From NCBI GenBank assembly GCA_020056225.1, contig JAGVIE010000042.1, positions 1-45,376 on the forward strand: a stretch of DNA of 45,376 nucleotides, written 5' to 3'. The stretch is from Bacteroidota bacterium (GTDB lineage Bacteria > Bacteroidota > Ignavibacteria > UBA10030 > SZUA-254). Positions 29,163 through 45,274 of this stretch are shown here, piece after piece. The notes below the pieces were generated by a model that did not search any database, had not been told where the DNA came from, and worked only from the letters and a program-made list of their open reading frames with translations. How positions within the stretch are numbered: position 1 is the stretch's first letter; each line of letters begins with the position of its first letter. Both the position numbers and the translations under genes were made by a program.

Positions 29163-32100
29163 TTATTTTAACATCATTATTTTTTGAGTAGTATTGAATT
29201 TCTCGCTGACCATGCGAACAAAGTAAACACCACTCGGTGCTATGCCGCCATCATCCGATAATCCATTCCACTCTATTGTATGATAGCCGGCTGATTTCTG
29301 TTCATTGACAAGAGTTCTCACCTGTCTGCCAAGTATATCATACACAACAATCCCGACGAGAGCCGTCTTAGGCACGGCAACTACAAACTTCGTCGATGGA
29401 TTAAACGGATTAGGATAATTTCCACTCAGCGAAAATTGTGTCGGCAGAACTTCACGGCTCGATACTTCGAGCGATAAACTCTTCACGACTTTACTGATTG
29501 TGATCTTACCTTCACCGTCTAACGCTTGTTTATTTTTCCCGGATTCATTAAGTACGAATGCATTCGGACCGTTAGATTTAACATTCCAGCTTATCGTAAG
29601 CGGATATGCGCTTGCATTAATGTCGATAGGTATAGCGCGAATGTTATCTAATTTTGCCGGTATCGATTCGGCATAACGCTGCGTGCCGAAACGGACATCG
29701 AACATGTCATCGAAACCTACCGGCGGCATCTCATAATACGATGCGCTATACTTAGATTCATCAACCGAACCGAAATAAAGCGTCTGGCTGATTCCGTTTT
29801 TATCGGTAATCTTCAACGAGTTCATTTCATTTAGTATGTCTTTCCGTGACGATGTTTGACGCGCAAGTACGGTAAGAGCGCTCATGTAAAGTTTTCCACC
29901 GCCGGCTGTCTTCACCCAATATGACTGTCCGGGTTCGAGTGTATCAACCGAGTTGTACGTGTTCGTGTATCCGAAGTACGATGACTTAACAATGTCTGCA
30001 GGAATCTGTTCGATTGCGCTTACCAAAACTCTCTTACTAAGAGTACCGATCATATTCCATCCATCGTTCACGAACACTGTATCGCTGAACCTATCGAAAC
30101 CGGTCATTGAGATAGTATCCTGAGCCGCAAACTTGAGCCAGTAACCTACTCCATTGCGGAGATAATCTTTTGAAACATAGTTTCCTTCGTATGCGAAGGC
30201 ATCGGATATTGCATCAGGGAAGATATTGGTTTTGAGCGAATCGCTGATGGTCAACGGCATTGATATCATGTTCCAACCGAGATTATAAACGTAGTCTTTA
30301 GATAGAGAACCCAATGCATGAGCATAATCGGACATTGTCCATAGTGAGAATGAGTTAATACCGGTTGCGTGTAAACGATGATTAACGAGATCCAGTGTAG
30401 CAGGTTGTGGCATCCAAGTAACACCGATATCAGTTGATTTCCAGAGCAATAACGATGAAGCATCCTGACCGTTCAGGTCGTTATCATCGTAATAGAAATC
30501 GGTAGATGCATTAAGACCGGCGTTGACGGATGGTGTGACATCATAGTACCGCAAAATAGATTGGTTGCCGCCATTACCGGTTTGGGGAACGCCCGTAATC
30601 CGCTTGATGGTGGTTGAGCCGGGAGCTGCGCCTGCGGCATTAAAGCTAACTCCGATTCCGCCAAATTTATTTTCAACATCTTGATTGACAAGGCGAGTTG
30701 ATTTTACGGTGCCTTGAGCAAAGTGCCCTGCTGTTTCAACAATTTCACCATTTAAAAGAACAAGGCTATCAACAACATTTATGCTTTGGTTTAATGTCAC
30801 CGTATCTAATGTGCCAATCTTTACAAATGAGTAAGTTCCCGTATTTGCTCCACCTACTATCTGTTTTGATCCTGTGAGATCTGCCGGCTGTTCTCCAAAA
30901 TCCACAAAGTACCGTCTGTAACCATTTGTAGAAACCAGATTGAGAGTACCGTTGTTTGTTATGCCGCCATTTTTCATATTGATATGCGAATAGCTGCCAG
31001 CAATGGTAGAGTTGTTTACAGTGAGACTCGCATTATTCTCGATGGTAATTCCACCGGTTAACATGGGAACTCCAGTATAACTGAAATTACCGACCGAATT
31101 TTGATTGCTGTTTGATGTGCCACCGAGAACAAGAGAACCAAAACTCTTGATCAGCAGACTTCTAATCAGCATAGAGCCTGAACCCGTTTGGTACCATGTT
31201 ACGTTCTTCGTATTTGTTCCATCACCTACAATCAAATTACCCAGACGGAAACCTGCTGAGGATTTGATACTATCCGCTGTGGAACCAAAGAGCTTGACAG
31301 TGCCTTCATTCATATTTATACCGGCACTACCATTGTCTGTTAAATTTGAGACATTCGTAAAGATATAACTGTTTGCGATCAATACTGCATCGTTGTTTCC
31401 ATTGGAAGTAAATTTTGGTCTGCCGCCGCGTAAACCACCACCACCACCGCTGCCACCCGATAGATCCAGGCGCCCATTTACAGTTAATGTTATTGTACCG
31501 GTCGGTGAAAATTGAAGAACCTGTCCCGAATCACTTCCGGTTGGAACAAAGCCAACCATTGTAAGATTCCGGCATTCTGCATCTGCAGTAATTGTCACGA
31601 CGACATTTTTTGTTGCAAACGAAACATCGTTGGTTGAAACGGGTGGAACGCCGCCGGACCATGTGCTTCCGCTATTCCAATTACCGGTTGCGATTGCTTC
31701 AAATGCACCTGCAATATTGACGGTTGGAGAAGATGCAATCAATGACAATGCACCGGTAGAACCTTTTGTCTTTACTGCAAAAGTTGTTAGACCCAGTGAG
31801 CCTGGCGTATTTAAATTGGTAATGATAACGATTCCGGTATCGGTACCTGTAACAGCCGTATTCGAAATCGTGATCACATATGGGTCACCCGACGAACCAA
31901 TTCCACTTACTGCACTGCTTGATGAAGTAAAACCTGGTCCTGCGGTTGAATACGATGAACCATCCCACGACCAAGTTGATGGAAGAGTTACGCTAACTCC
32001 GTTTAATGAATATATACCATTACCTTTTACTACAAGTGTCTCACGTACAGCAGTGACACTTGAGAATTGATTTGCCGGTTTAATCGATGCGATACCGGTT

Positions 32101-34070
32101 CCGTCTGCAGGATCTATTCCGAGGTCAATAACATCTCGAGGCGCTACTTTATAAATTTTTGCACCACCGGTCACTATATCTTTCCGCTCGTATATAATAC
32201 CAACAAGTTGCGATGAGACGGGGATAGCTTTTGTGTAGAGTCCATTATTTTTACTTATGATAATCGTGCCTGAATCAGTTCCGGTTGTAAAGTTGCTTCT
32301 CCCGGCGCTAATCGTGTCAGTAAATGTTGAACCGGCAGAATTCCAATTGACCGAATTCAATTTTATTAACCTGCCTTCATAAGACTCATTGATTGCCGCG
32401 GCATTTGCAAGTACAACCGGAGAAGGCATAACTCCTGTACCTATTACAAATAAATTTGGACCGGCAGTTGAGAGTGGTACGACTTCAGTTTGACCATTGT
32501 AAGTATCAACAGAACCAAGTATTATTAAAGAATCACCTCGGGCAATAGTAGTTGATGATACGCTTGCACGATAGATTTGTATACCATGTCCGGCTTCCTG
32601 TAAAAAGAAACTTGTGTGTGTTGGTATATCGTCGATGATTTTATCTTCTACAGTAGTAACACCCGCAACTGCTACTTTTTGAGTATTCATTTTGGAAGTA
32701 TCACCTGTTGCATTATTTCCATAACCGTCATCTCCTCCTGTACGTATGTTCGCTATAGGTATCATAGTATAGGATCTTGGAGAAGTAACAATTTCTGTGA
32801 GTGTACCACCCGATGCAGCAGTTTCAACTTTCCATATTGAGTTACCGTTTAGTAGCGAACCAACAGGGTTAGGTGATGCCAAACCAGTGATTGTTATCGT
32901 TCCCGGTGTTGAACTCAGGTTTGCACTAGGGATTGTAATAGTGTTACTTGTAAAACTTGGTGTTTTTCCGGCGAACGCACCGCCGAGCGTAACATTGCCG
33001 CTGCTGAAACCTGTAAAGTCTGATGTCGGAATTGTCAACTGGACCTCATCAAGTGGTCCCGCAGGTATACCTGTGATTGTCACTTTTACAGTCTGACTGC
33101 CAGCATTCCTTGAAAATATTGTTGCTCCGGTAAAAAGTCCGACGGTCTCATTTGTCAGCGATGCCGATCCCGCGCCATCCGGAATGAATACATTAAGAGT
33201 AATATCGGATGCAATTGCTACCGATGTATTGCGCCCGGCAGCCGGGATGCTATCCGGTACTGTAATATTTTGATTAGAGTACGTAATCAGATTCGAAGCT
33301 ACCGGAGCAGTTGATCCGAGGTTATTTGGATAATCGTAAACTTCTATCTTATCAACAGACGTCGTTCCACTCGGTAGAAGCATTGCATAACCGCCAAGTG
33401 CATTACGAAGACCGACTGCAGTTGAATAATCTGTATTCCCCTCGGCTATGGCGATAGGTGTAGTTACATAATTCACACTGTCAGGTTCACTAAACCAAAT
33501 CCCTCTCATTGTCGTTCCATTGTAAGCAACAACAATCTTATTTTCTTTTGTCGCTGTTCCATCAAGTAAATTTCCGACCAAAAAACCGGCTCCCGTACCG
33601 GCTGTCAACATCCCACTTACGGGTGCAGTAGTTCCACCTGAAAATGTTGTACCTGATGCGGCACGTGCTCTTACATTTAGCGCCGCTATTCCTGATCGAT
33701 GTGCTTTCACCGGCACCCATCCTTCCCATGCACCTGAAGCGTCAGTCATGAATTGAAAATTACCATCGTTATAACTCGTTGTATTTCCCCAGGTACCCGG
33801 AGCAGTTAAGGGACCATTTCGGTAAGTGTACAATTGATTACCTATGAGTGTAAAATTTGGATCTCCAACTTTCATAAAATGCATCGTGCTTACTTGAGCA
33901 CCTGAAACAGTTACATAAATTGCAAATGGGACAACCTGCGTAGCATCAGTGTTTCCAACCGGAATATAGGCAGGAGATTTTGTAATCGCGATTGTTCCCT
34001 GCGCCTGTATGATTCCTACCAAACCTAAGATCATCACAAGCGTCAAAAAAACTTTTAACATTGTTTTCAT
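29163..34070 (-). CDS. Giant mosaic T9SS cargo protein (1635 residues)
   Basis: Signal peptide VFLTLVMILGLVGIIQAQG. Several unlike parts follow. Residues 25-450 are beta-rich. About 475-647 (DKIIDDIPTHTSFFLQEAGH ... ARGDSLIILGSVDTYNGQTE ... YEGRLIKLNSV) look like an OB-fold domain of the type attached to secreted nucleases. From about 807 (GNWNSGSTWSGGVPPVSTND) comes a repetitive parallel-beta stretch rich in Gly, Asn and Thr, typical of pectate-lyase-like surface proteins. Two NLGWNMIS/DGWNMIGT units (about 1257-1400) end with LEPGQSYWVK. The sorting domain (about 1548-1635) has LSGNYPNPFNPSTKF, YDILGRQVRTL and TTQKIMMLK. AAAGGA precedes the ATG. Likely a large adhesin; no catalytic motif seen. 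Confidence 0.8.
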   Translation of the reverse strand: MKTMLKVFLTLVMILGLVGIIQAQGTIAITKSPAYIPVGNTDATQVVPFAIYVTVSGAQVSTMHFMKVGDPNFTLIGNQLYTYRNGPLTAPGTWGNTTSYNDGNFQFMTDASGAWEGWVPVKAHRSGIAALNVRARAASGTTFSGGTTAPVSGMLTAGTGAGFLVGNLLDGTATKENKIVVAYNGTTMRGIWFSEPDSVNYVTTPIAIAEGNTDYSTAVGLRNALGGYAMLLPSGTTSVDKIEVYDYPNNLGSTAPVASNLITYSNQNITVPDSIPAAGRNTSVAIASDITLNVFIPDGAGSASLTNETVGLFTGATIFSRNAGSQTVKVTITGIPAGPLDEVQLTIPTSDFTGFSSGNVTLGGAFAGKTPSFTSNTITIPSANLSSTPGTITITGLASPNPVGSLLNGNSIWKVETAASGGTLTEIVTSPRSYTMIPIANIRTGGDDGYGNNATGDTSKMNTQKVAVAGVTTVEDKIIDDIPTHTSFFLQEAGHGIQIYRASVSSTTIARGDSLIILGSVDTYNGQTEVVPLSTAGPNLFVIGTGVMPSPVVLANAAAINESYEGRLIKLNSVNWNSAGSTFTDTISAGRSNFTTGTDSGTIIISKNNGLYTKAIPVSSQLVGIIYERKDIVTGGAKIYKVAPRDVIDLGIDPADGTGIASIKPANQFSSVTAVRETLVVKGNGIYSLNGVSVTLPSTWSWDGSSYSTAGPGFTSSSSAVSGIGSSGDPYVITISNTAVTGTDTGIVIITNLNTPGSLGLTTFAVKTKGSTGALSLIASSPTVNIAGAFEAIATGNWNSGSTWSGGVPPVSTNDVSFATKNVVVTITADAECRNLTMVGFVPTGSDSGQVLQFSPTGTITLTVNGRLDLSGGSGGGGGLRGGRPKFTSNGNNDAVLIANSYIFTNVSNLTDNGSAGINMNEGTVKLFGSTADSIKSSAGFRLGNLIVGDGTNTKNVTWYQTGSGSMLIRSLLIKSFGSLVLGGTSNSNQNSVGNFSYTGVPMLTGGITIENNASLTVNNSTIAGSYSHINMKNGGITNNGTLNLVSTNGYRRYFVDFGEQPADLTGSKQIVGGANTGTYSFVKIGTLDTVTLNQSINVVDSLVLLNGEIVETAGHFAQGTVKSTRLVNQDVENKFGGIGVSFNAAGAAPGSTTIKRITGVPQTGNGGNQSILRYYDVTPSVNAGLNASTDFYYDDNDLNGQDASSLLLWKSTDIGVTWMPQPATLDLVNHRLHATGINSFSLWTMSDYAHALGSLSKDYVYNLGWNMISMPLTISDSLKTNIFPDAISDAFAYEGNYVSKDYLRNGVGYWLKFAAQDTISMTGFDRFSDTVFVNDGWNMIGTLSKRVLVSAIEQIPADIVKSSYFGYTNTYNSVDTLEPGQSYWVKTAGGGKLYMSALTVLARQTSSRKDILNEMNSLKITDKNGISQTLYFGSVDESKYSASYYEMPPVGFDDMFDVRFGTQRYAESIPAKLDNIRAIPIDINASAYPLTISWNVKSNGPNAFVLNESGKNKQALDGEGKITISKVVKSLSLEVSSREVLPTQFSLSGNYPNPFNPSTKFVVAVPKTALVGIVVYDILGRQVRTLVNEQKSAGYHTIEWNGLSDDGGIAPSGVYFVRMVSEKFNTTQKIMMLK

Positions 34071-34128: not shown

Positions 34129-36348
34129 TTACCTGATGAGAAGCATCTTACCTGTTATGGAGCCGCTCGGTGTTACCAATCTGTAAAAATATATACCGTT
34201 TGCCGCCTGTTGTCCATTCCCGTTCAATCCATCCCATACCACGTCTTCATGACTGCCATCGGCGCGGTCTTCATCGAGTAATACCTTAACATTTTTGCCG
34301 AGCAGATCGTACACGATCAATTTTACATGTGTAGCTTTCGGCAGGTAGAACGGTATTTTTGTCCCCGCGTTGAATGGATTCGGATAATTGGGAAACAGCG
34401 TTAAATAAGTAGGGGTTTCAGTCGTGATCGGGTTTTTGAATTCCTTTCCGCCGCCGTCAAGCGTTTTCAAAATTGTTCCTCCGTCACCGAAAACATACCC
34501 GGTGAGTGAGTCTTTGAAAAACAGTGAATGCAGATTATGATTTGTGCCGCTGGATAGCGGAAACCAATTTTGTCCGCCGTCCTGCGTTTTTACTATCGTG
34601 CCGTCCTCACCGGCAATCCATCCGTATTTCTGATCGGCAAAAAACATTTTCCTGTAATCGGAGCCGGAGGGTCTCTTTGTAATTTGATACCATGTGTTGC
34701 CGCCGTCTGAAGTTTTGAGAATTCTGCCCCAGCGACCGGCGGTGAAACCTACGTCGTGCGAAGTAAACCAGATCGTGCTTAACCGGGGAACCGGCGTGAT
34801 GTTCAACGATACCCAGCTCAATCCTTTATCTGTGCTTCTGAATATCTCGCCTTTTTTCTTCAATGTATCTTCGCCTGCACCCCATATCGTTGTAGAATCG
34901 AGTACGAAGATCGAGGAGAAACTCATCCATGAAGGAATGGATACCGGCGACCAGTTGTAACCGGCGTCGTTTGATATCATTTCTAATCCGAAATCACCCG
35001 CAGCAATAACGTTGAGCGAATCTAAAAATTTTACTGTGCGGAATATTCTATTATTCGACATTGAGCGACTTATCCAGTCGGCGCCGCCATCGATTGTCAA
35101 TAAGATTGTGCCTGTATCGCTTACAGCAATCCCGCGCTGTGCATTCCAGAATTGAACATCCACGAGACGCTCAGTTGTATTGCTCACCTGCGGTGACCAT
35201 GTATGACCGGCATCAGAACTGAATAAGATAGCACCTTTTTCACCTGTCGTCCAGAAAAGAGAATCACCCACGTAGGCAATACTTCTCAGATTAGAAAACG
35301 AACTCTGCGAGTATGGAACCCATTGAGCGCCGGCATCGGATGTATTCCACATCTTGCCATTAGTCCCTACAACCCATCCCGATGCTAAACCTTTGAAATC
35401 AATCCCGGTCAGATTTACAGTTGTGTCAATTATTTTGATATACCAGGTTGATCCGCCATTGGTTGTATTGACAATTGTACCTTTATCGCCTGCGGCGAAA
35501 CCATAATTGATGGTAACCATTTTTATACCGGATAGCGACGAATTAATGCCGGTCGGTTGTGCCCTCCACGTAGAACCGCTGTCAGTAGTATGAAAAACCA
35601 TACCGTGTGTATCCGTCATCCACCCAACCGACGGACTTAAGAAATCCATGCCCTTGAATGTATAGGGTCCCGGAGTGTTCAAGCTATCCCATTTCGTCCC
35701 GCTGTTAGTCGTCCGCAAAAATAGTCCGAAGTTCCCGCACGACCAGACTAATCGGTCGTTGAAACTTCTTATAGATTGAAGATCAACGCCCGGTTTTGAA
35801 AATTGCGGTGACCATAAAGTTCCGCCGTTGCGGGTTGAAAATATGTTTCCGCCCGAACCGGTTACCCACCCGATATCGCGGCTTGCGAAATAAATATCAG
35901 TTAATGTAACTGCCGCGCTTCCCTTTGGTATTCCGCTTGATTGGAAAGACCAGTTGTTTCCGCCGTTGGTCGTTCTAAGTATCACGCTGGAATCACCTAC
36001 CGCCCAGCCGTTATTGTCATCAACGAAATAAACAGCCCTCAGTTTTTTTTGAAGATTATCCGTTAATGTTCTGTTGAGCCATGATGATCCTCCGTCTGTT
36101 GAGACCAATATTGTTGCCGAATTACCGACAGCGATCATGTGCGAGGGAGACGTCATAATAATATCCGACAGATCGTTCCCTTGCGGGAGAGGATTCAACC
36201 AGAACCAGCCCTCAGCAGAACTGGAGACAGAAGATAATCCTGGCTGAGAATAAGAAATGGAAAAAAAGAAACAATTTATCAGCAGCAAGCCGATAATAAA
36301 AAATAAACCTTGAGAATATTTGATCGTTCGTTCTTTTGATATTGTCAT
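34129..36348 (-). CDS. T9SS cargo: 14-repeat YCF48/BNR propeller protein
   Basis: 739 residues from the ATG at 36348 (the frame opens with a TTG at 36357). After a signal peptide (FFIIGLLLINCFFFSISYSQ) come fourteen repeats of about 40-45 residues with a (T/S)T(D/N)GG..W core, such as ILRTTNGGNNW and IVKTQDGGQNW, as in YCF48-like and BNR proteins. Fourteen units would make two seven-bladed propellers. The sorting domain starts LFPNYPNPFNAGTKI (with NA in place of NP) and ends GKMLLIR. YCF48 of cyanobacteria is a photosystem II assembly factor; here only the fold is implied. Tandem paralogue of the next gene, 36 bases apart. Confidence 0.85.
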   Translation of the reverse strand: MTISKERTIKYSQGLFFIIGLLLINCFFFSISYSQPGLSSVSSSAEGWFWLNPLPQGNDLSDIIMTSPSHMIAVGNSATILVSTDGGSSWLNRTLTDNLQKKLRAVYFVDDNNGWAVGDSSVILRTTNGGNNWSFQSSGIPKGSAAVTLTDIYFASRDIGWVTGSGGNIFSTRNGGTLWSPQFSKPGVDLQSIRSFNDRLVWSCGNFGLFLRTTNSGTKWDSLNTPGPYTFKGMDFLSPSVGWMTDTHGMVFHTTDSGSTWRAQPTGINSSLSGIKMVTINYGFAAGDKGTIVNTTNGGSTWYIKIIDTTVNLTGIDFKGLASGWVVGTNGKMWNTSDAGAQWVPYSQSSFSNLRSIAYVGDSLFWTTGEKGAILFSSDAGHTWSPQVSNTTERLVDVQFWNAQRGIAVSDTGTILLTIDGGADWISRSMSNNRIFRTVKFLDSLNVIAAGDFGLEMISNDAGYNWSPVSIPSWMSFSSIFVLDSTTIWGAGEDTLKKKGEIFRSTDKGLSWVSLNITPVPRLSTIWFTSHDVGFTAGRWGRILKTSDGGNTWYQITKRPSGSDYRKMFFADQKYGWIAGEDGTIVKTQDGGQNWFPLSSGTNHNLHSLFFKDSLTGYVFGDGGTILKTLDGGGKEFKNPITTETPTYLTLFPNYPNPFNAGTKIPFYLPKATHVKLIVYDLLGKNVKVLLDEDRADGSHEDVVWDGLNGNGQQAANGIYFYRLVTPSGSITGKMLLIR

Positions 36349-36384
36349 AAATCGCAATAATAAAATATCGATTTTGCCGTAATA

Positions 36385-38688
36385 TTATTTCAGATAGATC
36401 ATCTTAATAGTCGATTGAAACTTCCAATCCTTCGAATATATTCTTGCAAAGTACATGCCCGACGGTAAGCCGTCGGCATCGAACAACACCGAATGAATCC
36501 CGGCTTTATACTCAATATCTTCGCTCAATGTGCGAACTTCCTGACCGAGCATGTTATAAACCTTGACGCTGATAACTTCGGGGTCATGTAATTCAAATGA
36601 AAGAGTAGTTACCGGATTGAATGGGTTGGGATAATTCGTAAACGACGGGGTCGGGATATTTTCCTGCATCGCGATAAATCCACCGTTCAAACCCAACTCA
36701 TTCTTCAGGATGATACCCATATTACCTACTGCCCAAACATTGCCCGGAGGATCGATGCATAATCCGTAAAGCGGTGATGTTGCGACCGATTGCTGGTATG
36801 ACCAATTCGCGCCGCCATTTGTTGTTTTTAATAATACACCGCGTGCACCGGCAACCCATCCATTAAGATTATCTTTAAAAATTACCGAATTAAAAATATT
36901 CGAGCCGCCCGATAATTGGAGAGCCCAGGTTAACCCGCCATTTGTTGTGCCTAATATTGCGCCGCCTGCTCCAACCGCCCAACCGACAGATACATCGTAG
37001 AAGTACACCGAGAAGAGCTGTTTGCGCGTTAAGCCGGTTGATGGCTGTGGATACCAATGAGCGCCGCCATCAATTGTTGTAAATATACATCCGGAACCTC
37101 CGGCAGCCCAACCATAATTGCTGTTATAAAAATAAATTGAGTTTAATTTAACACCGCTTCCGACAGAACGAGATGACCAGGATGATCCGCCGTTAGTCGT
37201 CTTCATGATCTTTCCTCCATTTCCGCAGGCGTACCCAAGCTGTGTGTTCAGGAAAAAGATCGATTGTAGCGGACGGGATGCGCCGGTCCATAGATAAGTC
37301 CAGTTTTGTCCGCCATTAGTCGTTCGCATCACCGAACCACGCGAACCGCAAACCCAGCCGTTTACTGAATCGACAAAGGAAACAGACATCAATCTTTCTC
37401 TGAAACCGGTTGAAAAGACATTCCAACTTATACCGCCATTGGTGGTTTTTGCAATAACTCCGATATTCCCACTGTCGCCCACTACAAAACCGATCAGGGG
37501 TGTCGGATATTTAATCGAAAAGAGATTAGCGTTAAAGCCGCGGTTCACTTGCTGCCAGGTTGTGCCGCTATTCGTGGTTTTTAAGATGACACCTCTGTTA
37601 CCGACAGCCCATCCGAGCGATGTATCGGCGAACTTAACATCGATTAGCCACGCTTTAGTACCTGAATTTTGCGCTTCCCACAGATTGCCGCCGTTTGTAG
37701 TGCGCAGAATAGCGCCGCCTGAACCTACAGCCCATCCATACATACTATCTATATGAATATTATCGATGTATAACCCGCTGGTTTCATTTTGTAATATCCA
37801 ATTCACGCCGCCGTTAGTAGTTTTCAAAATTCTGCCCTTGTAACCCGCAGTCCAGCCAGTAGTAGTGTTGATGAATTGAACCGATGTCAAGCGTGATGTA
37901 AGATATGGAGATGATTGACTCGACCACACGGCACCTCCATTCGTAGTATTGAATACACGTCCCGAATCTCCAACCACCCAACCTCTATTGGCATCTGCAA
38001 AATCGACGCTGTAAAAAGGAAGATATGAAATTGGTGTTGTGAACTGGCGGGTCCATGATGTTCCGCCATCCGTTGTATGTATAATTAAACCGTTGGCGCC
38101 AACCGCCCACCCAATATTGCGATCGATAAATTTTACAGTCCAGAGTAATATATTTGTAATAGAATTCAACTTGGTCCAGGATGAACCGCCGTCCGTTGTT
38201 TTTACGACTGTACCACGGCTGCCCACGGCATAAGCCACGCTCGTATCAACAACATCGATTGAAAATATTGAGCTGGATGAATAACCAAGTCCGTGCTGGG
38301 TGTCCCAACCGATTCCGCCATCGGTCGTAGAAGTATAGGTTCCCATAGCTCCGACAGCGCAAGCGCCTGTATCCCTGTAAATATCGACCGAGAAGAGCGT
38401 ATTCGCCTGTGGATATGGGTTGATCCATTTCCATGGTGAGCCGCCTGCATCAATATCCATTACCGCACTTTCTTCAGACTGGTATGAAGAACGATCTAAC
38501 GGGAGCGTCCCATCATCCTGAAGGGTATCGGCATCGACAACGTCAAGTGTATCGGCTTCAAAAGTTTGACCGATAGCGGTTTGATGCGGAAGAAATATTA
38601 TCAACGTAAGATAAAAAACAAAACCTATCAATCGAACGTCAAACCTGGTTCGATAGTCCATACTCAAAGCATCTATTGTCTTAATCAT
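36385..38688 (-). CDS. T9SS cargo: 13-14-repeat YCF48/BNR propeller protein next to the usher
   Basis: 767 residues. GAGGTG lies 6 bases before the ATG. Signal segment VFYLTLIIFLPHQTAIGQ follows a basic N-terminus. I count thirteen clear repeats with TT(D/N)GG..W (VVKTTDGGSSW, IMKTTNGGSSW and so on) and a last degenerate one (GIILKNELG), so two seven-bladed propellers are plausible. The sorting domain has SFTNYPNPFNPVTTL, YNMLGQEVRTL and STIKMIYLK. It begins 32 bases after the usher gene stop without a terminator between, so it may be transcribed with the chaperone-usher genes. Confidence 0.85.
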   Translation of the reverse strand: MIKTIDALSMDYRTRFDVRLIGFVFYLTLIIFLPHQTAIGQTFEADTLDVVDADTLQDDGTLPLDRSSYQSEESAVMDIDAGGSPWKWINPYPQANTLFSVDIYRDTGACAVGAMGTYTSTTDGGIGWDTQHGLGYSSSSIFSIDVVDTSVAYAVGSRGTVVKTTDGGSSWTKLNSITNILLWTVKFIDRNIGWAVGANGLIIHTTDGGTSWTRQFTTPISYLPFYSVDFADANRGWVVGDSGRVFNTTNGGAVWSSQSSPYLTSRLTSVQFINTTTGWTAGYKGRILKTTNGGVNWILQNETSGLYIDNIHIDSMYGWAVGSGGAILRTTNGGNLWEAQNSGTKAWLIDVKFADTSLGWAVGNRGVILKTTNSGTTWQQVNRGFNANLFSIKYPTPLIGFVVGDSGNIGVIAKTTNGGISWNVFSTGFRERLMSVSFVDSVNGWVCGSRGSVMRTTNGGQNWTYLWTGASRPLQSIFFLNTQLGYACGNGGKIMKTTNGGSSWSSRSVGSGVKLNSIYFYNSNYGWAAGGSGCIFTTIDGGAHWYPQPSTGLTRKQLFSVYFYDVSVGWAVGAGGAILGTTNGGLTWALQLSGGSNIFNSVIFKDNLNGWVAGARGVLLKTTNGGANWSYQQSVATSPLYGLCIDPPGNVWAVGNMGIILKNELGLNGGFIAMQENIPTPSFTNYPNPFNPVTTLSFELHDPEVISVKVYNMLGQEVRTLSEDIEYKAGIHSVLFDADGLPSGMYFARIYSKDWKFQSTIKMIYLK

Positions 38689-38720: not shown

Positions 38721-41342
38721 TTATTGCGCGATTGTTAGAGTAAAATTCTGATCGCTCACGAGATCGCCGTCCGCTTTAATCAAAACGTTTATATCCCTTT
38801 TCAATGGCACACAGCGGTAGCGTAAATTTGAGAGCTGGTCAGCGTCCAATTCAAGAATATAACGACCGGGCGGCACGCCGACAAACTCAAATTCACCGGT
38901 GGAGAACGTAGTAATTGTTTTCTTGAATTTACTTGTAAAACTGTTGATCTTGTTCTCATCGATATTCTGACTCACGGCGGACAAAGTAATTTTCATACCT
39001 TCTGCCGGCATGGTTGCTTTGGTAGAGACCAACACAATGCCGCGTACAATTCCGCCGGTAACAACCGGAATATCGATGTGCCGCAAATAATTAGGTTCCG
39101 ACATAACCTGGATTCCGCCGAATTCCGGAACCCAGAGAGGATTTTCCAGGCTTTGAGGATCCAGGTAGAAATTATATTTTTCGTAACTGAAAAATCCCCT
39201 TCGATTTACCTTGTTGATAGACATCGAAGAATATTGATTTCCAAAAGTGGTATTTTGATAATATACCTTGCCTACATCTATTGGCGATTCATCTTTGTCA
39301 AATATACCATTGGCATTCTGATCGATGAATGGACGTATGACGAAACCGCGGCTGTCGATAATACTGCCGTGTACATCGCTGAATTTGACAGAGGGGTGTA
39401 CGAGATCGAAATCCAGAGTTCCGCTTCCGGCAAGGGAATATTCATAACGATCGCTTCCGAAAGTCGCGGCGCCAACCTGGGTACGAACGAACGGGAAGTA
39501 ATATGACAAACGGAAACCGATAGAATAATAACTTGGCTTGAACGCCCTCAGATAAGAGGCGGACAATATAAAATTATTTAAAATATATTTAACGCCTACG
39601 ACATCGATACTCACCAATCTGTGCTGTAGATGATCGTAACGCATATCTCCCCTGATATTTAAACCAGCCGGCATTGTAACGGCGAGTCCGGCGTTCGATT
39701 CCTGTGCGATGGTTATACGGTTTCCATTGAATTGCTTTTGCGAGAGCCACCGTGTACTGATTGTCGGTGATACTTTTGTAAGAACAGTGGAGAATGAAAC
39801 CTGAAGCTCGTCGTTGCGATAATCGGTATATTCGGTGCGTGTTCCGAACAGATTTATCACATAAGAATTGAGACCCTTGAAGAATGGGATAGAGGCAGAT
39901 GTACTCAATTCATTCATCATTCCGCTCAGATTGAATGCCGACTGAGTTCCATAGTAAGTATTCGATACTGTAAATCTCGCGGTGGATGGAAATTCCAAGT
40001 TCAGATTGGCTTGTGCGATACCTTTCGGAATAACCAATGCATCGAAGATTAAATTATCGGTTAAGCGCGCTGTTCCGGAAACCCCGCCGTAGAATTTTGT
40101 CGGATACTTAAAATCATAATATGCGATCTTCGTTCCGACTGTGAGGTTTGAAGATATACCCCAGTTTAATGCACTTGTAAAGGTTTTGATAGGTTTATTG
40201 CCTTTTGTCTTTCCGGTAGAAATTGAATATTCAGCCTCACCGGGCGGTATAAGCGAGCGCGGGACTACGAGCCGGTAACGCAGGAGGCGTTCCTGTCCCC
40301 AATTATCGAATGCGCGGACTTCCAATAGTCCATTCCCGTATAATACGGGCGCATCAAACTGATATATACCCTGATCGTCTGCTTTAAGAAAATTCATTTC
40401 TCCGATACCGCCGGAAGTCGAAACATTCATGTTTGGTTCTACGGCACCGTGAAATACTTCGCGCGTGAAAAGTCTGCGGGCGGCAGCCGGTCTGTTAGTA
40501 AACTCTATGCCGCTAATTTCCTGCGAAATCACTCCTATGTTATAGATATCCCCGAAAGTAATTTGTCTGAGATAAGGAGTATCAAAAACCGGGTAACGCA
40601 TCTTCCATCTGAAAGTGTTTTTAGTTTGCTTCGGTTGTATTACGCTGAAGAGACGCCCCGTTAAATCGCCGCCTAAAGTTTTAATACCGAAATATAAATT
40701 ATCTCTTGAATCAAGAAATTTTAGTCCAGATGACGAAGCGGGATTATTGACGAATCTTGAGTTCGAGCTCCAATCCAATCTGCCTCCATTTATGAATTTG
40801 ATTTCTCTTCCCAGTACAACCTCCGGTTCGGCGAATCGCATCGGTCGAACCCGCTGTTGGAGCGATTTTAACCGACGGGCAACTATCACGGCAGGGATAT
40901 CAAGGGCATTCTTAACTAAAATCTGAAGTTTTCTCGGATAGTAAATTAATTCAAGCTCAAAAATTTTGTTAATCGCAGCCAGGCGCAGGAATAATACGTT
41001 ATCTTTAAAAAGATAATCTTCCGGCGTTAGTTCTATGGATTTTTTGCTTTTAACTTTGGCAAGACCATTTCCGATGTCGATTGAATAAACGTTATCCGAA
41101 CTTTTAAAAATACCGCTGATTATCTGCTTCGATGAATCGTATTCTGCCTTAATGCCTAAAAACGTCAATACTTCTATCGAAGGAACATAAACGAGCGTAT
41201 CAATAACTATAATAGTAATTTCTATCGAACCTAATGTCGGCGCCTTTAACTCCACCGGTATATATTGATCGGACGGCTGTTGTGCCCACGAATATAACAC
41301 GCCGCAGATCAAAAAAACAATTTGACGGCAAATTTTTTTCAT
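38721..41342 (-). CDS. Divergent outer-membrane usher (FimD/PapC-like)
   Basis: 873 residues with a signal peptide ending YSWAQ. Residues 25-155 have a double VDTLVYVPSIEVLTFLGIK...DNVLFLRLAAINKIF arrangement, resembling the N-terminal domain of archaic ushers. The region around residues 270-390 matches the usher core: SGIEFTNRPA, then a plug-like EVFHGAVEPNMNVSTSGG, FLKADDQGIYQFDAPVLYGN, GLLEVRAFDNWGQE and VVPRSLIPPGEAEYSISTGK. A long beta-barrel follows, then DQNANGIFDKDESP (a surface-protein calcium-loop-like motif) and C-terminal Ig-like domains with FEFVGVPPGRYILELDAD. It should receive chaperone-bound subunits from the gene 20 bases upstream. Homology to typical ushers is weak, hence the reserve. 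Confidence 0.7.
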   Translation of the reverse strand: MKKICRQIVFLICGVLYSWAQQPSDQYIPVELKAPTLGSIEITIIVIDTLVYVPSIEVLTFLGIKAEYDSSKQIISGIFKSSDNVYSIDIGNGLAKVKSKKSIELTPEDYLFKDNVLFLRLAAINKIFELELIYYPRKLQILVKNALDIPAVIVARRLKSLQQRVRPMRFAEPEVVLGREIKFINGGRLDWSSNSRFVNNPASSSGLKFLDSRDNLYFGIKTLGGDLTGRLFSVIQPKQTKNTFRWKMRYPVFDTPYLRQITFGDIYNIGVISQEISGIEFTNRPAAARRLFTREVFHGAVEPNMNVSTSGGIGEMNFLKADDQGIYQFDAPVLYGNGLLEVRAFDNWGQERLLRYRLVVPRSLIPPGEAEYSISTGKTKGNKPIKTFTSALNWGISSNLTVGTKIAYYDFKYPTKFYGGVSGTARLTDNLIFDALVIPKGIAQANLNLEFPSTARFTVSNTYYGTQSAFNLSGMMNELSTSASIPFFKGLNSYVINLFGTRTEYTDYRNDELQVSFSTVLTKVSPTISTRWLSQKQFNGNRITIAQESNAGLAVTMPAGLNIRGDMRYDHLQHRLVSIDVVGVKYILNNFILSASYLRAFKPSYYSIGFRLSYYFPFVRTQVGAATFGSDRYEYSLAGSGTLDFDLVHPSVKFSDVHGSIIDSRGFVIRPFIDQNANGIFDKDESPIDVGKVYYQNTTFGNQYSSMSINKVNRRGFFSYEKYNFYLDPQSLENPLWVPEFGGIQVMSEPNYLRHIDIPVVTGGIVRGIVLVSTKATMPAEGMKITLSAVSQNIDENKINSFTSKFKKTITTFSTGEFEFVGVPPGRYILELDADQLSNLRYRCVPLKRDINVLIKADGDLVSDQNFTLTIAQ

Positions 41343-41362
41343 CTGACCTATCCAAACAATAA

Positions 41363-42235
41363 TTATGGTATTATCAGCGTTGTGGAAGTATGAATCGGAT
41401 TTGAACGCACTAATTTTGTTTTGTTGACATCCATTCTCTTCTCGGTTACGAATTCCACTTCCACTGTATATTGCCCGGGTAATATACCGCCCCGACCGAT
41501 TCTATCCAGAGTGGTCAGTGTTGTATAAACTCCCGTGTTCTTTGTTTTTGTTAAAACAGTTTTCCCGCTTTTATCGATAACTCTGATCGTTCTGCTTCCC
41601 CAATAAGCGGCGTTGCCGGTCTTGGATAAATTCATCGAGAGATTGATCGATGTATCTGCTATTTCCGCATTGAGGGAATTAACAATTATTCCGGTCGTCA
41701 GTCTACCAATCCGATAATGAAACGGTAAACTTAATTGATGGAGGATATTTATACCTTGCCTTACTCCCGTTGGAGTAGATTCAACCCGCTGGAGCTTCTT
41801 CGTTGGCTTGCTCGTCACCATTACACGTGCCCAATACTCGCCGTCTACTAAACCTGACGGCGGCGATACAAACAAACGCACCGTTTGACTCTCTCCGCCA
41901 CCGAGAATAAATCTTCTCGGAAATCCTTGCACCCATGATGCCGCCGATAATTCTGAATTTCCCGATGAATCGATGAATATGTATAATCTTCCGCTGTCGC
42001 TCGTGGTTTCATAGCCAAATTTTATGTCGAGCCACACTTCACGCTCGTCTGTACCGGTGTTTGTAACAATCAATGGAGTGGAACGGTGCGGACTTTCAAG
42101 AAACAAAAAATTGGGGGAGGTTTGAATATCGGCATGAAGTAAATTGAAGCAAATAAATACCGTAAGGAACACAATTTTTATTAATAACTTTTTGGTATTC
42201 TTCATAAAAAATCTATTTTCCGATCTCTTCCCCAT
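41363..42235 (-). CDS. PapD-like periplasmic pilus chaperone
   Basis: 290 residues from the ATG at 42235, chosen for AAAGGA 5 bases upstream; an ATG at 42205 would also give a signal peptide (KLLIKIVFLTVFICFNLLHA) and the frame extends to 42292. The mature part has two Ig-like domains: NFLFLESPHRSTPLIVTNTG (first strands), a long insertion, then ILGGGESQTVRLFVSPP and DGEYWARVMV, which match the G1-like edge and the DGEYxxxxxV signature of PapD-type chaperones; the second domain starts near GIIVNSLNAE. It should shield subunits and deliver them to the usher encoded 20 bases downstream. Confidence 0.72.
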   Translation of the reverse strand: MGKRSENRFFMKNTKKLLIKIVFLTVFICFNLLHADIQTSPNFLFLESPHRSTPLIVTNTGTDEREVWLDIKFGYETTSDSGRLYIFIDSSGNSELSAASWVQGFPRRFILGGGESQTVRLFVSPPSGLVDGEYWARVMVTSKPTKKLQRVESTPTGVRQGINILHQLSLPFHYRIGRLTTGIIVNSLNAEIADTSINLSMNLSKTGNAAYWGSRTIRVIDKSGKTVLTKTKNTGVYTTLTTLDRIGRGGILPGQYTVEVEFVTEKRMDVNKTKLVRSNPIHTSTTLIIP

Positions 42236-42299
42236 TGAATCCTTTTTTTGGGATTTGAATTCTGACAATAATATAACTAATTCTTCATTCAAACAACAA

Positions 42300-42324
42300 T
42301 CTTGTAAGATATGTTCTTACAAGA
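42300..42324 (-). promoter_or_regulatory. 10-5-10 perfect palindrome upstream of the chaperone-usher genes
   Basis: TCTTGTAAGA (42300-42309) and TCTTACAAGA (42315-42324) are perfect reverse complements 5 bases apart. The site is 65 bases before the chaperone ATG and after the terminator of the subunit gene. Size and symmetry suit a dimeric regulator. A second, weaker terminator is the alternative, since the minus strand after it is T-rich. Confidence 0.5.
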
Positions 42325-42358
42325 AAGCACTATTACGAAATCCATTTCTATTAAATCA

Positions 42359-42403
42359 AAAGGGTAGCCCGAAGTATGCTGTTCTATCCTCAAGCTACCC
42401 CTT
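42359..42403 (-). terminator. Terminator/attenuator between subunit and chaperone genes
   Basis: GGGTAGC (42362-42368) pairs with GCTACCC (42394-42400) with a 25-base loop. On the minus strand the stem is followed by CTTTTGATTT. It lies 42 bases after the stop of the DUF4402-like gene and may limit read-through, so that the subunit is made in excess over the chaperone and usher. Confidence 0.6.
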
Positions 42404-42444
42404 TACTATATTTCTGTTGTTTGCTCTACGATAACGAATTTCAA

Positions 42445-43020
42445 TTAGTTCGCAGCGTATGCAACTGTGCAGATCGCATCAGCTATATATACATCGGCAG
42501 CTGAATTTGGTGCAACTGTGAATATACCGCCAAGCTCCACAATAGTTGCAGTGGCGCCATCCGCTGTCATCCACATAGTCTCGGGAAGATTCGGATTGAA
42601 ATAATGAAATTCTGTTCCCTCACTCCAATCTGCGGAGGTACCATTATAGCTGACATATACCGCACCATTGAGACCACTAGAGGAATAAAGAATATACGGT
42701 AGTGCAAATGATACTATTACGGCTGAATTCGGGTCGCCAGTGACTTCAAAAATACCGACTGTACTGCCGCCAATGACTGCAGATAGGTATGCAGAATTTC
42801 CTGGATCTACGAATGCGCCGGCGCCATCTGGTACTAATGCAACTGGTTGTCCGACTGAAACTAACGAGACTGTAAGGTCTTGCGTCATAGCGACGGTTAG
42901 CGGTGTTCCGCTAACGTCACAAGAGACGATACAGCTTGCCGATGTGACTGCCTGTGCGAACACATTGCTCGTTCCTACGAGAGCAAGCAGTACTACTAAT
43001 ACGAACATGAATTTTTTCAT
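42445..43020 (-). CDS. DUF4402-like secreted subunit (putative pilin)
   Basis: 191 residues. Signal peptide MKKFMFVLVVLLALVGTSNVFA. The mature part is a single beta-rich domain with VTSASCIVSCDVSG (two close cysteines), LTVAMTQDLTVSLVSVG, IGGSTVGIFEVTGDPNSAVI and a C-terminal GGIFTVAPNSAADVYIAD followed by a Cys and alternating strand. This is the outline of DUF4402 proteins (FxVTGEPNAxxxI and GGTLTVAxNQAAGxYxG), small subunits found with PapD-like chaperones. A strong AAAGGAG lies 7 bases before the ATG. No polar pilin motif of type IV pili is present. Assembly into a fibre is inferred from context. Confidence 0.7.
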   Translation of the reverse strand: MKKFMFVLVVLLALVGTSNVFAQAVTSASCIVSCDVSGTPLTVAMTQDLTVSLVSVGQPVALVPDGAGAFVDPGNSAYLSAVIGGSTVGIFEVTGDPNSAVIVSFALPYILYSSSGLNGAVYVSYNGTSADWSEGTEFHYFNPNLPETMWMTADGATATIVELGGIFTVAPNSAADVYIADAICTVAYAAN

Positions 43021-43234: not shown

Positions 43235-45169
43235 TTACTTCAATAACATCATCTTCTTAACTTGCTGGAATTGACCGTCATTAACAATCAACTGATAATA
43301 ATATACACCTGATGCCAAATTAGAAGCATTGAATTCAATATCGTTTGTACCGGCATTGAATTCCTCATTGTTAGCAAGTGTTGCCACTTCCTGACCGAGC
43401 ATGTTGAATATCTTCAACGAAATAATAGCATCCTGATCGAGCTCAAATGAAATTATCGTCGATGGATTGAACGGATTAGGATAATTCTGATCCAACTTGA
43501 ATTTCACCGGATTTGCTTCATAAACATAGTTACCGAATCCACTAGATGGCTCCAATTCAGCCCAGGTGGGTCTGTAAACTACATTAGTCTGGTATAAATA
43601 TTTCGCCGGTTTTAACACAAACGCTGACCACCAGCTTGTTGTATCGAATTTACCTGAGAAGGCTGAATTAATTTTCGATACAATGCCCAGCAATTGTTGA
43701 CCTGTCGCTAACGGAATGCCGATAGGTTTACGATCTGCGCTATCGCATGAAATATAATGATCTGCAATCCTGATTATTGAATCGATTGGTATCGCATTAG
43801 CCCATGCAGGATCGGTAATCTGTTGAGCATAGAGCAGTCTGCCGAATCCTTTATTAGCGTTACCCATAAATCCGGCATCACTAACTTCGAGATTGACTTT
43901 CAGCGCCAATAACTCTGCCAATAATTTGTTCGGTTTTCTCTTATCCGGTCCTATTGCTCCAACACCCTTCACGTATCCTTTACCATTGAAATCATTGAGG
44001 CATACTGCAGTGCCCGGTGCATCGACTCCGAAATCTTTCTTATACAACATCTTTAATACATCACCATATTTCTTGTGGAACATATATTTAAACATTCCTT
44101 TATATGGCGCTTTTGTACCATAGTATCCCGCAGTATCAGTCATACCGACAATGATACCGGTTGCAGAACCGGGATATTTTACGGCAAACATATCTGATAG
44201 AACGTTAACCCAGTTTGGCATCGGAAGACGTGTGTAAGCGTTGATACCAGCATAAAATGCCGGTTTCATCCATACGCCGCCCTTTTTAGGATACGGTAAT
44301 GTATCGAGCTTACCAAATGCATATTTCTTCGCGTAAAGGGTTTTACCCTTATCACCGATTCCTGATACTGTGACTGTCTCTCCAATAGCAACGGTGTTAG
44401 CAGGATTTGAGAAAGTAAATGTATATTTTTTTCTCTTTTTTGGTTCCGGATCAGTCGTTGCAACATCAAAAGGGCTAAAGGCGGTTAATACTACCGCTTG
44501 TGAAAATTCAACATATAATTTGGGGGCAGGTATCGTAATTTCATTTTTAAAATAAAATGTACCTTCACTGGTAACCGGAGCCTTTTTGTTTAGTTTGCCG
44601 ATCTTGCCTTTCTGATCAACTGCATAAGCAAGAGATTCAGATGTAGCTGTGAAGTAACCTTTTCCATCACCTCTCACAATTAGAACAGCTTGCTGGAAAA
44701 TATCAAAAGTATGGTGGGTGTATGTAGTGGTGGTACTCATATCGCAAAGGATAGTACCGTTTAATTCTGTTATCAACCATACGCCGCCGCTTGCACCGAG
44801 ACCTGAGGGCCAAGTGAATTGCATCTCATGTCCGTTTTCATCTGACTGGAAGCCAATCCTCCATTGATCAGTTTGTGTCGGTCGCACTAACTTGTGATAA
44901 TTTATCATCAAACCTGTTCCGATCGTATCATATCCTACTCTTGAAACAAAACGTGTGTCCATGGTCGGTTTAACTGGTGGTTGCTCTTTCTCTCCGAGTG
45001 CAGCATCAATTAGACCCGTTGCACTTGCATCTAAACCAAGTGTCAACGTATCAGTTCTGACGCCGTCCGTCGCGTATATCTGTATGCTCAACGGTTCCTG
45101 TGCTAATGCTGCAACTACTAATATAAGACACAGTCCGATCACGAGCGAAACATTTTTAAACATTTTCAT
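43235..45169 (-). CDS. T9SS cargo with shared module and sorting domain
   Basis: 644 residues from the ATG at 45169 (CGAGGT 5 bases upstream; the frame stays open to 45250). Signal peptide VSLVIGLCLILVVAALA. Residues 25-300 are beta-rich without recognised repeats. A central part carries IIVGMTDTAGYYG and GKGYVKGVGAIGP, then the module seen in two other cargo proteins (about 400-525: AELLALKVNLEVSD ... GFGRLLYAQQ ... KINSAFSGKFDT). The sorting domain has LDQNYPNPFNPSTIISF, FNMLGQEVATL and KKMMLLK. First complete cargo gene upstream of the chaperone-usher cluster, with its own terminator, so it is a separate unit. Confidence 0.82.
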   Translation of the reverse strand: MKMFKNVSLVIGLCLILVVAALAQEPLSIQIYATDGVRTDTLTLGLDASATGLIDAALGEKEQPPVKPTMDTRFVSRVGYDTIGTGLMINYHKLVRPTQTDQWRIGFQSDENGHEMQFTWPSGLGASGGVWLITELNGTILCDMSTTTTYTHHTFDIFQQAVLIVRGDGKGYFTATSESLAYAVDQKGKIGKLNKKAPVTSEGTFYFKNEITIPAPKLYVEFSQAVVLTAFSPFDVATTDPEPKKRKKYTFTFSNPANTVAIGETVTVSGIGDKGKTLYAKKYAFGKLDTLPYPKKGGVWMKPAFYAGINAYTRLPMPNWVNVLSDMFAVKYPGSATGIIVGMTDTAGYYGTKAPYKGMFKYMFHKKYGDVLKMLYKKDFGVDAPGTAVCLNDFNGKGYVKGVGAIGPDKRKPNKLLAELLALKVNLEVSDAGFMGNANKGFGRLLYAQQITDPAWANAIPIDSIIRIADHYISCDSADRKPIGIPLATGQQLLGIVSKINSAFSGKFDTTSWWSAFVLKPAKYLYQTNVVYRPTWAELEPSSGFGNYVYEANPVKFKLDQNYPNPFNPSTIISFELDQDAIISLKIFNMLGQEVATLANNEEFNAGTNDIEFNASNLASGVYYYQLIVNDGQFQQVKKMMLLK

Positions 45170-45243
45170 ATAAGACCTCGCTGAATTATGTGTGTGGATT
45201 AGAAATTTCAATTTTTTTGGGCTTGGAAAACACCTGATTAATT

Positions 45244-45274
45244 GAAGCATCCCGTTTTTTCAACGGGATGCTTC
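45244..45274 (-). terminator. Hairpin between the right-end fragment and the 644-residue gene
   Basis: GAAGCATCCCGTT (45244-45256) pairs perfectly with AACGGGATGCTTC (45262-45274) around a 5-base loop. It begins 10 bases after the stop of the truncated T9SS gene on the minus strand. The tail after it is only moderately T-rich. Confidence 0.7.

Follow-up and report, generated by a model that had tools for sequence, protein, structure and literature searches.

A probable non-classical chaperone-usher pathway beside type IX secretion cargo genes in Ignavibacteria, with relatives adjoining motor genes

Introduction

Chaperone-usher (CU) pili have been described from Proteobacteria, Cyanobacteria and Deinococcus-Thermus, according to the accessible parts of PMC4654587 and PMC10104325, while the transporter table within the accessible part of PMC4827864 adds Spirochaetes and lists no Bacteroidetes. 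The accessible text of PMC4654587 also gives an F1-strand arginine (Arg89 of CsuC and EcpB) as the most characteristic feature of the archaic and alternative chaperones. Here we analysed an entire contig of 45,376 bases (hereafter, the window) from the 3.5-Mb, 62-contig genome of a Bacteroidota bacterium of the class Ignavibacteria, in which three neighbouring minus-strand genes at 38721-43020 encode a pilin-like subunit, a PapD-like chaperone and a remote usher. The three genes very probably constitute a non-classical CU pathway, located among genes for cargo of the type IX secretion system (T9SS). The fold or homology of each of the three products, the gene order across genomes and the linked T9SS genes were established computationally. 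An earlier note, written from the letters alone, had placed the three open reading frames (ORFs) at these positions and had proposed a CU assembly line; its claims are taken up below with the results that bear on them.

Results

A plugged barrel far from classical ushers

A profile of 12 Ignavibacteria-type ushers matched the seven E. coli K-12 ushers over 500 columns in hhalign (prob 98.1, E = 7.3e-14), and a wider profile of 41 ushers reached E = 6.7e-15, the control K-12 barrels FhuA and LptD giving prob 0.4 and 0.2, respectively. The AlphaFold model of the window usher (41 sequences; pLDDT 86.9, pTM 0.71) is a plugged outer-membrane barrel of approximately 24-25 strands, in which the plug follows strand 6, as counted on the DSSP line; we take six strands ahead of the plug to be the arrangement of FimD as well. 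The first 18 Foldseek ranks against the PDB were all FimD or PapC (1.7e-27 to 9.0e-14), followed by an unrelated protease (2.5e-7) and the first porin (8.5e-7). The VIA comparison aligned 603 residues with FimD (Z 20.0, 8.7 Å) and 360 residues with the FimD pore alone (Z 16.6, 3.9 Å); since other barrels reached Z 16.0, the pore-alone score fails to tell ushers from porins, which the whole-protein score does. The barrel with plug supposed in the earlier note is thus what structure prediction returned, and the usher fold, the gene trio and, at weak scores, the pilin-like subunit fold are shared with classical CU pili (FimD/PapC, FimC/PapD).

Unlike the classical systems, this usher is linked to them in sequence through profiles only, in keeping with the divergence that had been claimed for it. 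The Pfam usher model PF00577 had no match in the window usher at E ≤ 1, in any of 29 aligned family members at E ≤ 0.01 (one of the 29 rows being a non-usher of 990 amino acids (aa) from locus L062), or anywhere in the window's genome; the E. coli positive control gave a match. That 990-aa protein, a T9SS/TIG protein taken in by the first usher profile (A1, 29 rows), was excluded from the later profiles A4 and A5. The only usher match in NCBIfam was weak (PefC/AfrB, E = 0.029). Single-sequence searches of solved structures with the usher and the chaperone gave chance matches only (antibody chains and a deiminase, for the two together), and matches of the usher profile to solved structures were limited to the C-terminal domain, a Bap-like stretch (E = 9e-8) and SPOR.

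A further difference from classical systems is a DxNxNGxxD loop in the C-terminal region. This loop, DQNANGIFD in the window, had been pointed out earlier and is a conserved element: D674, N676 and D682 are invariant and N678 and G679 nearly so among 12 aligned ushers, and a loop of this type recurs in three proteobacterial relatives. Ig-like domains had also been assigned to the C-terminus; residues 766-842 do have Ig/prealbumin-like similarity, which stays below the cut-off (CarboxypepD_reg, E = 0.00019). The N-terminal domain described earlier as extra is probably not so. Residues 25-150 precede the barrel, align along the proteobacterial relatives in the profile comparison and sit where ushers have their normal N-domain, and from this position they are probably an ordinary one; the fold comparison spanned mainly residues 177-761.

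Chaperone

Homology to PapD-like chaperones was upheld at the family level. Pfam gave no match to the window chaperone at E ≤ 1, and PapD_N was matched by 6 of the 31 aligned family members (best 8.2e-5). The family profile matched eight E. coli K-12 chaperones in the first domain only (prob 95.9, E = 6.3e-9). Against solved structures, the same profile gave rows at chance level, among them a plant toxin chain (E = 0.098), PapD (0.5) and Enterococcus WxL-interacting proteins (0.5).

In the hhalign alignment to the K-12 chaperones, the classical basic anchor residues of domain 1 (Arg and Lys) are replaced by Phe and Pro, another departure from classical CU systems. Pro96 is kept in all 31 aligned chaperones and, judging from the alignments, would be the super-family proline named in the accessible text of PMC4654587. 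Arg127, in the F1 strand region, is found in 27 of the 31 (His in three, Lys in one), and it appears to be the conserved arginine of non-classical chaperones, the positions being matched through a weak alignment to the arginine of EcpB (prob 50). The apparent conservation of this residue, by the criterion in the accessible part of PMC4654587, is shared with archaic and alternative systems (Csu, CupE and ECP). As for ECP itself, the usher taken alone gave no profile match (0.5%) and EcpB gave a weak one (50%).

A second PapD-like protein (386 or 402 aa) is encoded at L061:2775-4511 (-) and L062:7867-9075 (+), where it adjoins a 169-aa secreted protein and no usher is present. Near these genes lie large T9SS proteins that have a domain in common with the window's 671-aa protein.

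Subunit, and export without a fibre as an unlikely alternative

The window subunit matched Pfam DUF4402 at E = 0.0044 (18.1 bits, below the cut-off of 25.2), and 12 of 28 aligned subunits, including this one, did so at E ≤ 0.01 (best 4.2e-23). The proposed DUF4402-like character is thus real, and sub-threshold in the window itself. Its AF2 model (pLDDT 78.4) has a pilin-like Ig fold whose first strand starts at residue 42, leaving residues ~24-41 unpaired as a candidate donor segment; at weak scores, the model is suggestive of the incomplete Ig fold and the N-terminal segment looked for on the earlier note's suggestion. Among the matches listed, 47 of 50 in Foldseek (best E = 0.023) and 48 of 50 in VIA (best Z 6.8 with FimG and 6.7 with CsuA/B) were CU subunits. 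The model lies near CsuA/B and CsuE, a likeness to archaic and alternative systems, whereas the SCPU (spore coat U) model characteristic of archaic sigma-fimbriae matched 0 of 28 subunits at E ≤ 0.01.

Subunit-like genes sit ahead of the chaperone; the Ignavibacteria loci have a single one, and other families have as many as four. The suggestion of a single or very few subunit types holds for the Ignavibacteria operons, the number varying between families, and further subunit-like genes lie outside the operon. No adhesin gene was seen within the operon, in agreement with the note's remark on a missing tip adhesin. With one subunit gene, no adhesin gene and a window subunit lacking the C-terminal glycine, the usher might instead export the DUF4402-like protein as a single-copy or few-copy surface protein, with no polymer being formed. 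We consider this unlikely: an unpaired N-terminal stretch precedes the first strand, and relatives carry as many as four consecutive subunit genes, as in fibre systems.

Two such genes were seen elsewhere in the same genome. An orphan subunit-like gene (196 aa; L107:6250-6840 (-), contig C60) has no chaperone or usher within the 13 kb examined. A 428-aa protein (L108:6663-7949 (+), contig C7) combines two subunit-like (DUF4402-like) domains with a T9SS tail and may be at once a pilus subunit and a T9SS cargo protein; its front part has relatives in 6 of 39 other related genomes (E ≤ 0.001, some weak). Both are candidates for the missing tip or surface partners.

Distribution of the family and its plasmid relatives

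As a single query, the window usher found homologues in 56 of the 296 genomes of the phylum, from 25 of 140 genera (E ≤ 1e-5). Profile A5 found 64 of 296 genomes and 27 of 140 genera (E ≤ 1e-10); 45 of the 64 lay below 1e-200, and the other 19 matched less strongly, in part over short stretches only, the shortest being a frame of 120 aa. Members of A5 were among the sequences searched, and their scores are by construction. A scan of named genomes with the usher family gave 14 loci, nine of them titled Ignavibacteria or Ignavibacteriae and the other five Chlorobiaceae, Bacteroidetes, Bacteroidota, uncultured bacterium and, weakly, Gemmatimonadales (L094, in which the profile match was confined to a 338-aa ORF). 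Four pattern matches in viral contigs were not confirmed as relatives. Ushers of Ignavibacteria-type genomes were 24-36% identical to that of the window.

Subunit, chaperone and usher are adjacent in the window and in relatives. A chaperone homologue precedes the usher on the same strand in 20 of the 20 first loci and in 49 of 50 loci overall, the exception (L126) being cut by the contig end. The two genes are directly adjacent in 46 of the 50, and a small ORF intervenes in L042, L049 and L068. The three-gene order that the earlier note had proposed to seek in related genomes was therefore found.

The same trio occurs on plasmids of Polaromonas sp. E5S, Sphingopyxis indica and Pseudoalteromonas xiamenensis, annotated there as DUF4402, 'molecular chaperone' and 'carboxypeptidase regulatory-like' and not recorded as ushers. 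The plasmid ushers (~25-33% identical among themselves) matched the window family over nearly their full length (prob 100, E = 1e-44), the chaperones matched its chaperone profile (E = 2.2e-21), and PF00577 matched none of the three ushers. Their subunits exceed the DUF4402 cut-off, unlike that of the window, and no T9SS cargo was seen alongside. The usher clade is real and has been overlooked. The earlier label of an undescribed clade was right in that the plasmid members are not named as ushers in their records and too narrow in that they were already in databases on proteobacterial plasmids; since both the trio and the usher family occur there, the clade is not peculiar to T9SS bacteria. 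A literature search that left subscription papers and preprints mostly outside its coverage turned up no description of this clade and none of a motor next to an usher.

Several variations were observed among the ushers. Proteins of 1100-1550 aa with C-terminal repeats are encoded at L033, L036-L039, L041, L128-L136 and other loci. SPOR domains were present in 8 of 29 ushers scanned and TPR_2 in 3 of 29, a hint of peptidoglycan anchoring. On the Pseudoalteromonas xiamenensis plasmid (L154:8154-8792 (+)), the usher is followed by one gene with a SPOR domain and another with TPR, resembling the SPOR/TPR tails of Bacteroidota-type ushers. In L068, the second locus of genome G112, a second usher copy is split into ORFs of 160 and 825 aa, with a partial FliF-like gene behind.

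Conserved type IX secretion cargo

The minus-strand locus runs from a 671-aa T9SS cargo gene through subunit, chaperone and usher to two YCF48-like genes and a large FlgD/T9SS-tail gene (Table 1). The 309-aa chaperone ORF (41363-42292) starts with TTG; we used the ATG at 42205 instead, and the distance ahead of the chaperone hinges on this choice of start codon. Given the short distances that follow, the chaperone through the last gene looks like a single operon.

Table 1. Genes of the chaperone-usher locus, in minus-strand order, and the motor genes of related loci
Feature	Position	Strand	Distance from preceding gene (bp)	Remarks
T9SS cargo protein	43235..45250	minus		671 aa; Por_Secre_tail 7.6e-11; upstream of subunit
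Pilin-like subunit	42445..43020	minus	214	191 aa; signal peptide; unpaired residues ~24-41, candidate donor segment
PapD-like periplasmic chaperone	41363..42205	minus	239	280 aa from ATG at 42205; profile matches
Usher	38721..41342	minus	20	873 aa; N-terminal region 25-150, barrel ~177-646, plug 291-345, two C-terminal domains with DxNxNGxxD loop
T9SS cargo, YCF48-like propeller and sorting tail	36385..38688	minus	32	PF14870 8.8e-57; Por_Secre_tail 5.4e-8
Second YCF48-like protein, FlgD-type tail	34129..36357	minus	27	PF14870 5e-55; FlgD_ig 2.3e-6; Por_Secre_tail 20.9 bits, under cut-off of 27
Large FlgD_ig/Por_Secre-tail protein	29163..34070	minus	58	Place differs among loci
FliF-FliG-like fusion, TPR lipoprotein-like protein, MotA, MotB-OmpA(-SPOR) (related loci)	L034:10100-15009; L035, L040, L044, L117-L125; L126			Behind TPR-tailed usher; L126 cut by contig end

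The retention of a T9SS cargo gene after the usher is a new observation. A homologue of the first propeller directly follows the usher in all 15 Ignavibacteria-type loci whose sequence extends beyond the usher on that side, with alignments of 594-769 residues; the 15 comprise nine loci and six further genomes (L075/L085, L077/L082, L078/L087, L079/L089, L090 and L091). The usher-to-cargo gap was -4 to 62 bp in 8 of the 9 loci measured, a 66-aa ORF overlapping in L074. A homologue of the second YCF48-like protein comes next in several loci, and a homologue of the 671-aa protein lies ahead of the subunit in 9 of 10 loci in view (seven plus L085 and L089), L093 having other ORFs there. SprA is present in the window's genome (1030 bits). 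The claim that the locus is shared with T9SS cargo is accordingly borne out.

These conserved neighbours would also be in keeping with the trio being an accessory T9SS export line whose PapD-like protein serves T9SS cargo and not a pilus, and the genome does hold a second, usher-less PapD-like protein near a 2108-aa T9SS protein, with a similar case in G298. Such a role is very improbable, since the same trio occurs in Proteobacteria and in other families with no adjoining T9SS cargo, and since both the usher fold and the gene order are those of CU systems.

Motor genes beside related ushers

The motor-linked loci belong to relatives and not to the window. In families f30, possibly Balneolaceae, and f29, a TPR-tailed usher is followed by a FliG_M/FliG_C protein, a small lipoprotein-like TPR protein, MotA and MotB-OmpA (Table 1). 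Like the flagellar FliF, FliG, MotA and MotB, these proteins carry FliG_M, FliG_C, MotA_ExbB, MotB_plug and OmpA domains; YscJ_FliF_C was seen in L044 only, at 22.4 bits and below the cut-off of 23.8. An Asp in the MotB membrane helix (column D33) is invariant in 13 of 13, and we take it to be the ion-binding stator residue.

The FliF-FliG-like fusion gene was found in 14 of 296 genomes (E < 1e-200), at the usher locus in every one of the 14, and MotA and MotB follow in 13, the fourteenth (L126) being cut by the contig end. Loci L117-L126 were picked because the length of the usher pointed to the motor type, or because no other loci of that family were at hand; 14 of 296 is the unbiased figure. 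The arrangement differs from the flagellar one in that the FliF-like protein and FliG are fused and stand beside an usher, and in that flagellin and FlhA were found, at E ≤ 0.001, in only three of the 14 genomes. The 11 that lack them include two single-contig assemblies, and the same search gave matches in four flagellated control genomes. In the window's genome, the fusion profile had no match at E ≤ 1e-10, and the window holds no motor genes.

Nine genomes carry a second FliF-FliG-like gene (E = 1e-69 to 1e-99). A divergent FliF-FliG/MotA/MotB module, which also holds a 357-383-aa protein and a TPR protein and in which profiles detected no usher, chaperone or subunit, occurs at four of these loci (L143, L144, L145 and L148), and at L146 and L147 (two further loci, in G120 and G093). 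Such usher-less modules argue against a motor serving only this pilus, and the coupling of motor and pilus is thus suggested by synteny only. At that level, the gene order suggests a motor-linked CU pilus in these relatives.

Discussion

By analogy with known CU systems, the subunit would be exported by Sec, and a chaperone strand would complete its unfinished Ig fold in the periplasm. The chaperone-subunit pair would then be delivered to the usher, where donor-strand exchange would take place, the N-terminal segment of the next subunit displacing the chaperone strand, and the growing fibre would pass through the usher barrel once the plug has been displaced. A thin homopolymer is the probable form of the fibre in this lineage, made and controlled jointly with T9SS-exported surface proteins such as the beta-propeller cargo encoded behind the usher. 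We would guess that the fibre serves in attachment and is decorated or anchored by the T9SS proteins.

Several observations weigh against a CU pathway with a T9SS partnership. The Pfam usher model does not match, and TM-scores of the usher model to FimD are only 0.42-0.59, since its domains cannot be superposed together as a rigid whole. For the subunit, the fold comparison gave weak scores, with Z under 8 and nothing in Foldseek at E ≤ 0.001, and its sequence is one of two, among 40 aligned subunits, without the glycine of a C-terminal glycine-then-aromatic pattern (38 of 40). T9SS-tail proteins are very common in the genome (at least 150 matches, mostly to the tail), so mere adjacency is no evidence; the link would be supported by full-length genes keeping their order and place, insofar as this goes beyond gene-order conservation in general among these genomes. 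Finally, the proteobacterial relatives showed no T9SS cargo alongside, so the T9SS link is no inherent feature of the pathway.

The clade extends further than the earlier note supposed and includes a motor-linked form. We tentatively suggest, as a possibility that we do not yet favour, that its usher is an outer-membrane port of modular design. Together with T9SS cargo, it would make up a single surface unit in Ignavibacteria; in the sister lineages, represented by 14 of 296 genomes, it would be joined, via its TPR/SPOR tails and the TPR lipoprotein, to a FliF-FliG-like rotor and a MotA/MotB-like stator, giving a proton-driven, possibly rotating or force-generating CU pilus in cells without flagella.

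An overlooked clade that the Pfam usher model misses widens the known range of CU systems and makes it likely that DUF4402, a 'domain of unknown function', serves as a pilus subunit. The motor-linked loci bear on the rotor-without-filament question of PMC12199754, whose accessible text states that a rotor protein without a filament occurs in 11% of non-motile species and proposes an alternative function. If the motor does act on the pilus, these loci would encode a powered appendage of a new kind, which could be tested for in cultured relatives.

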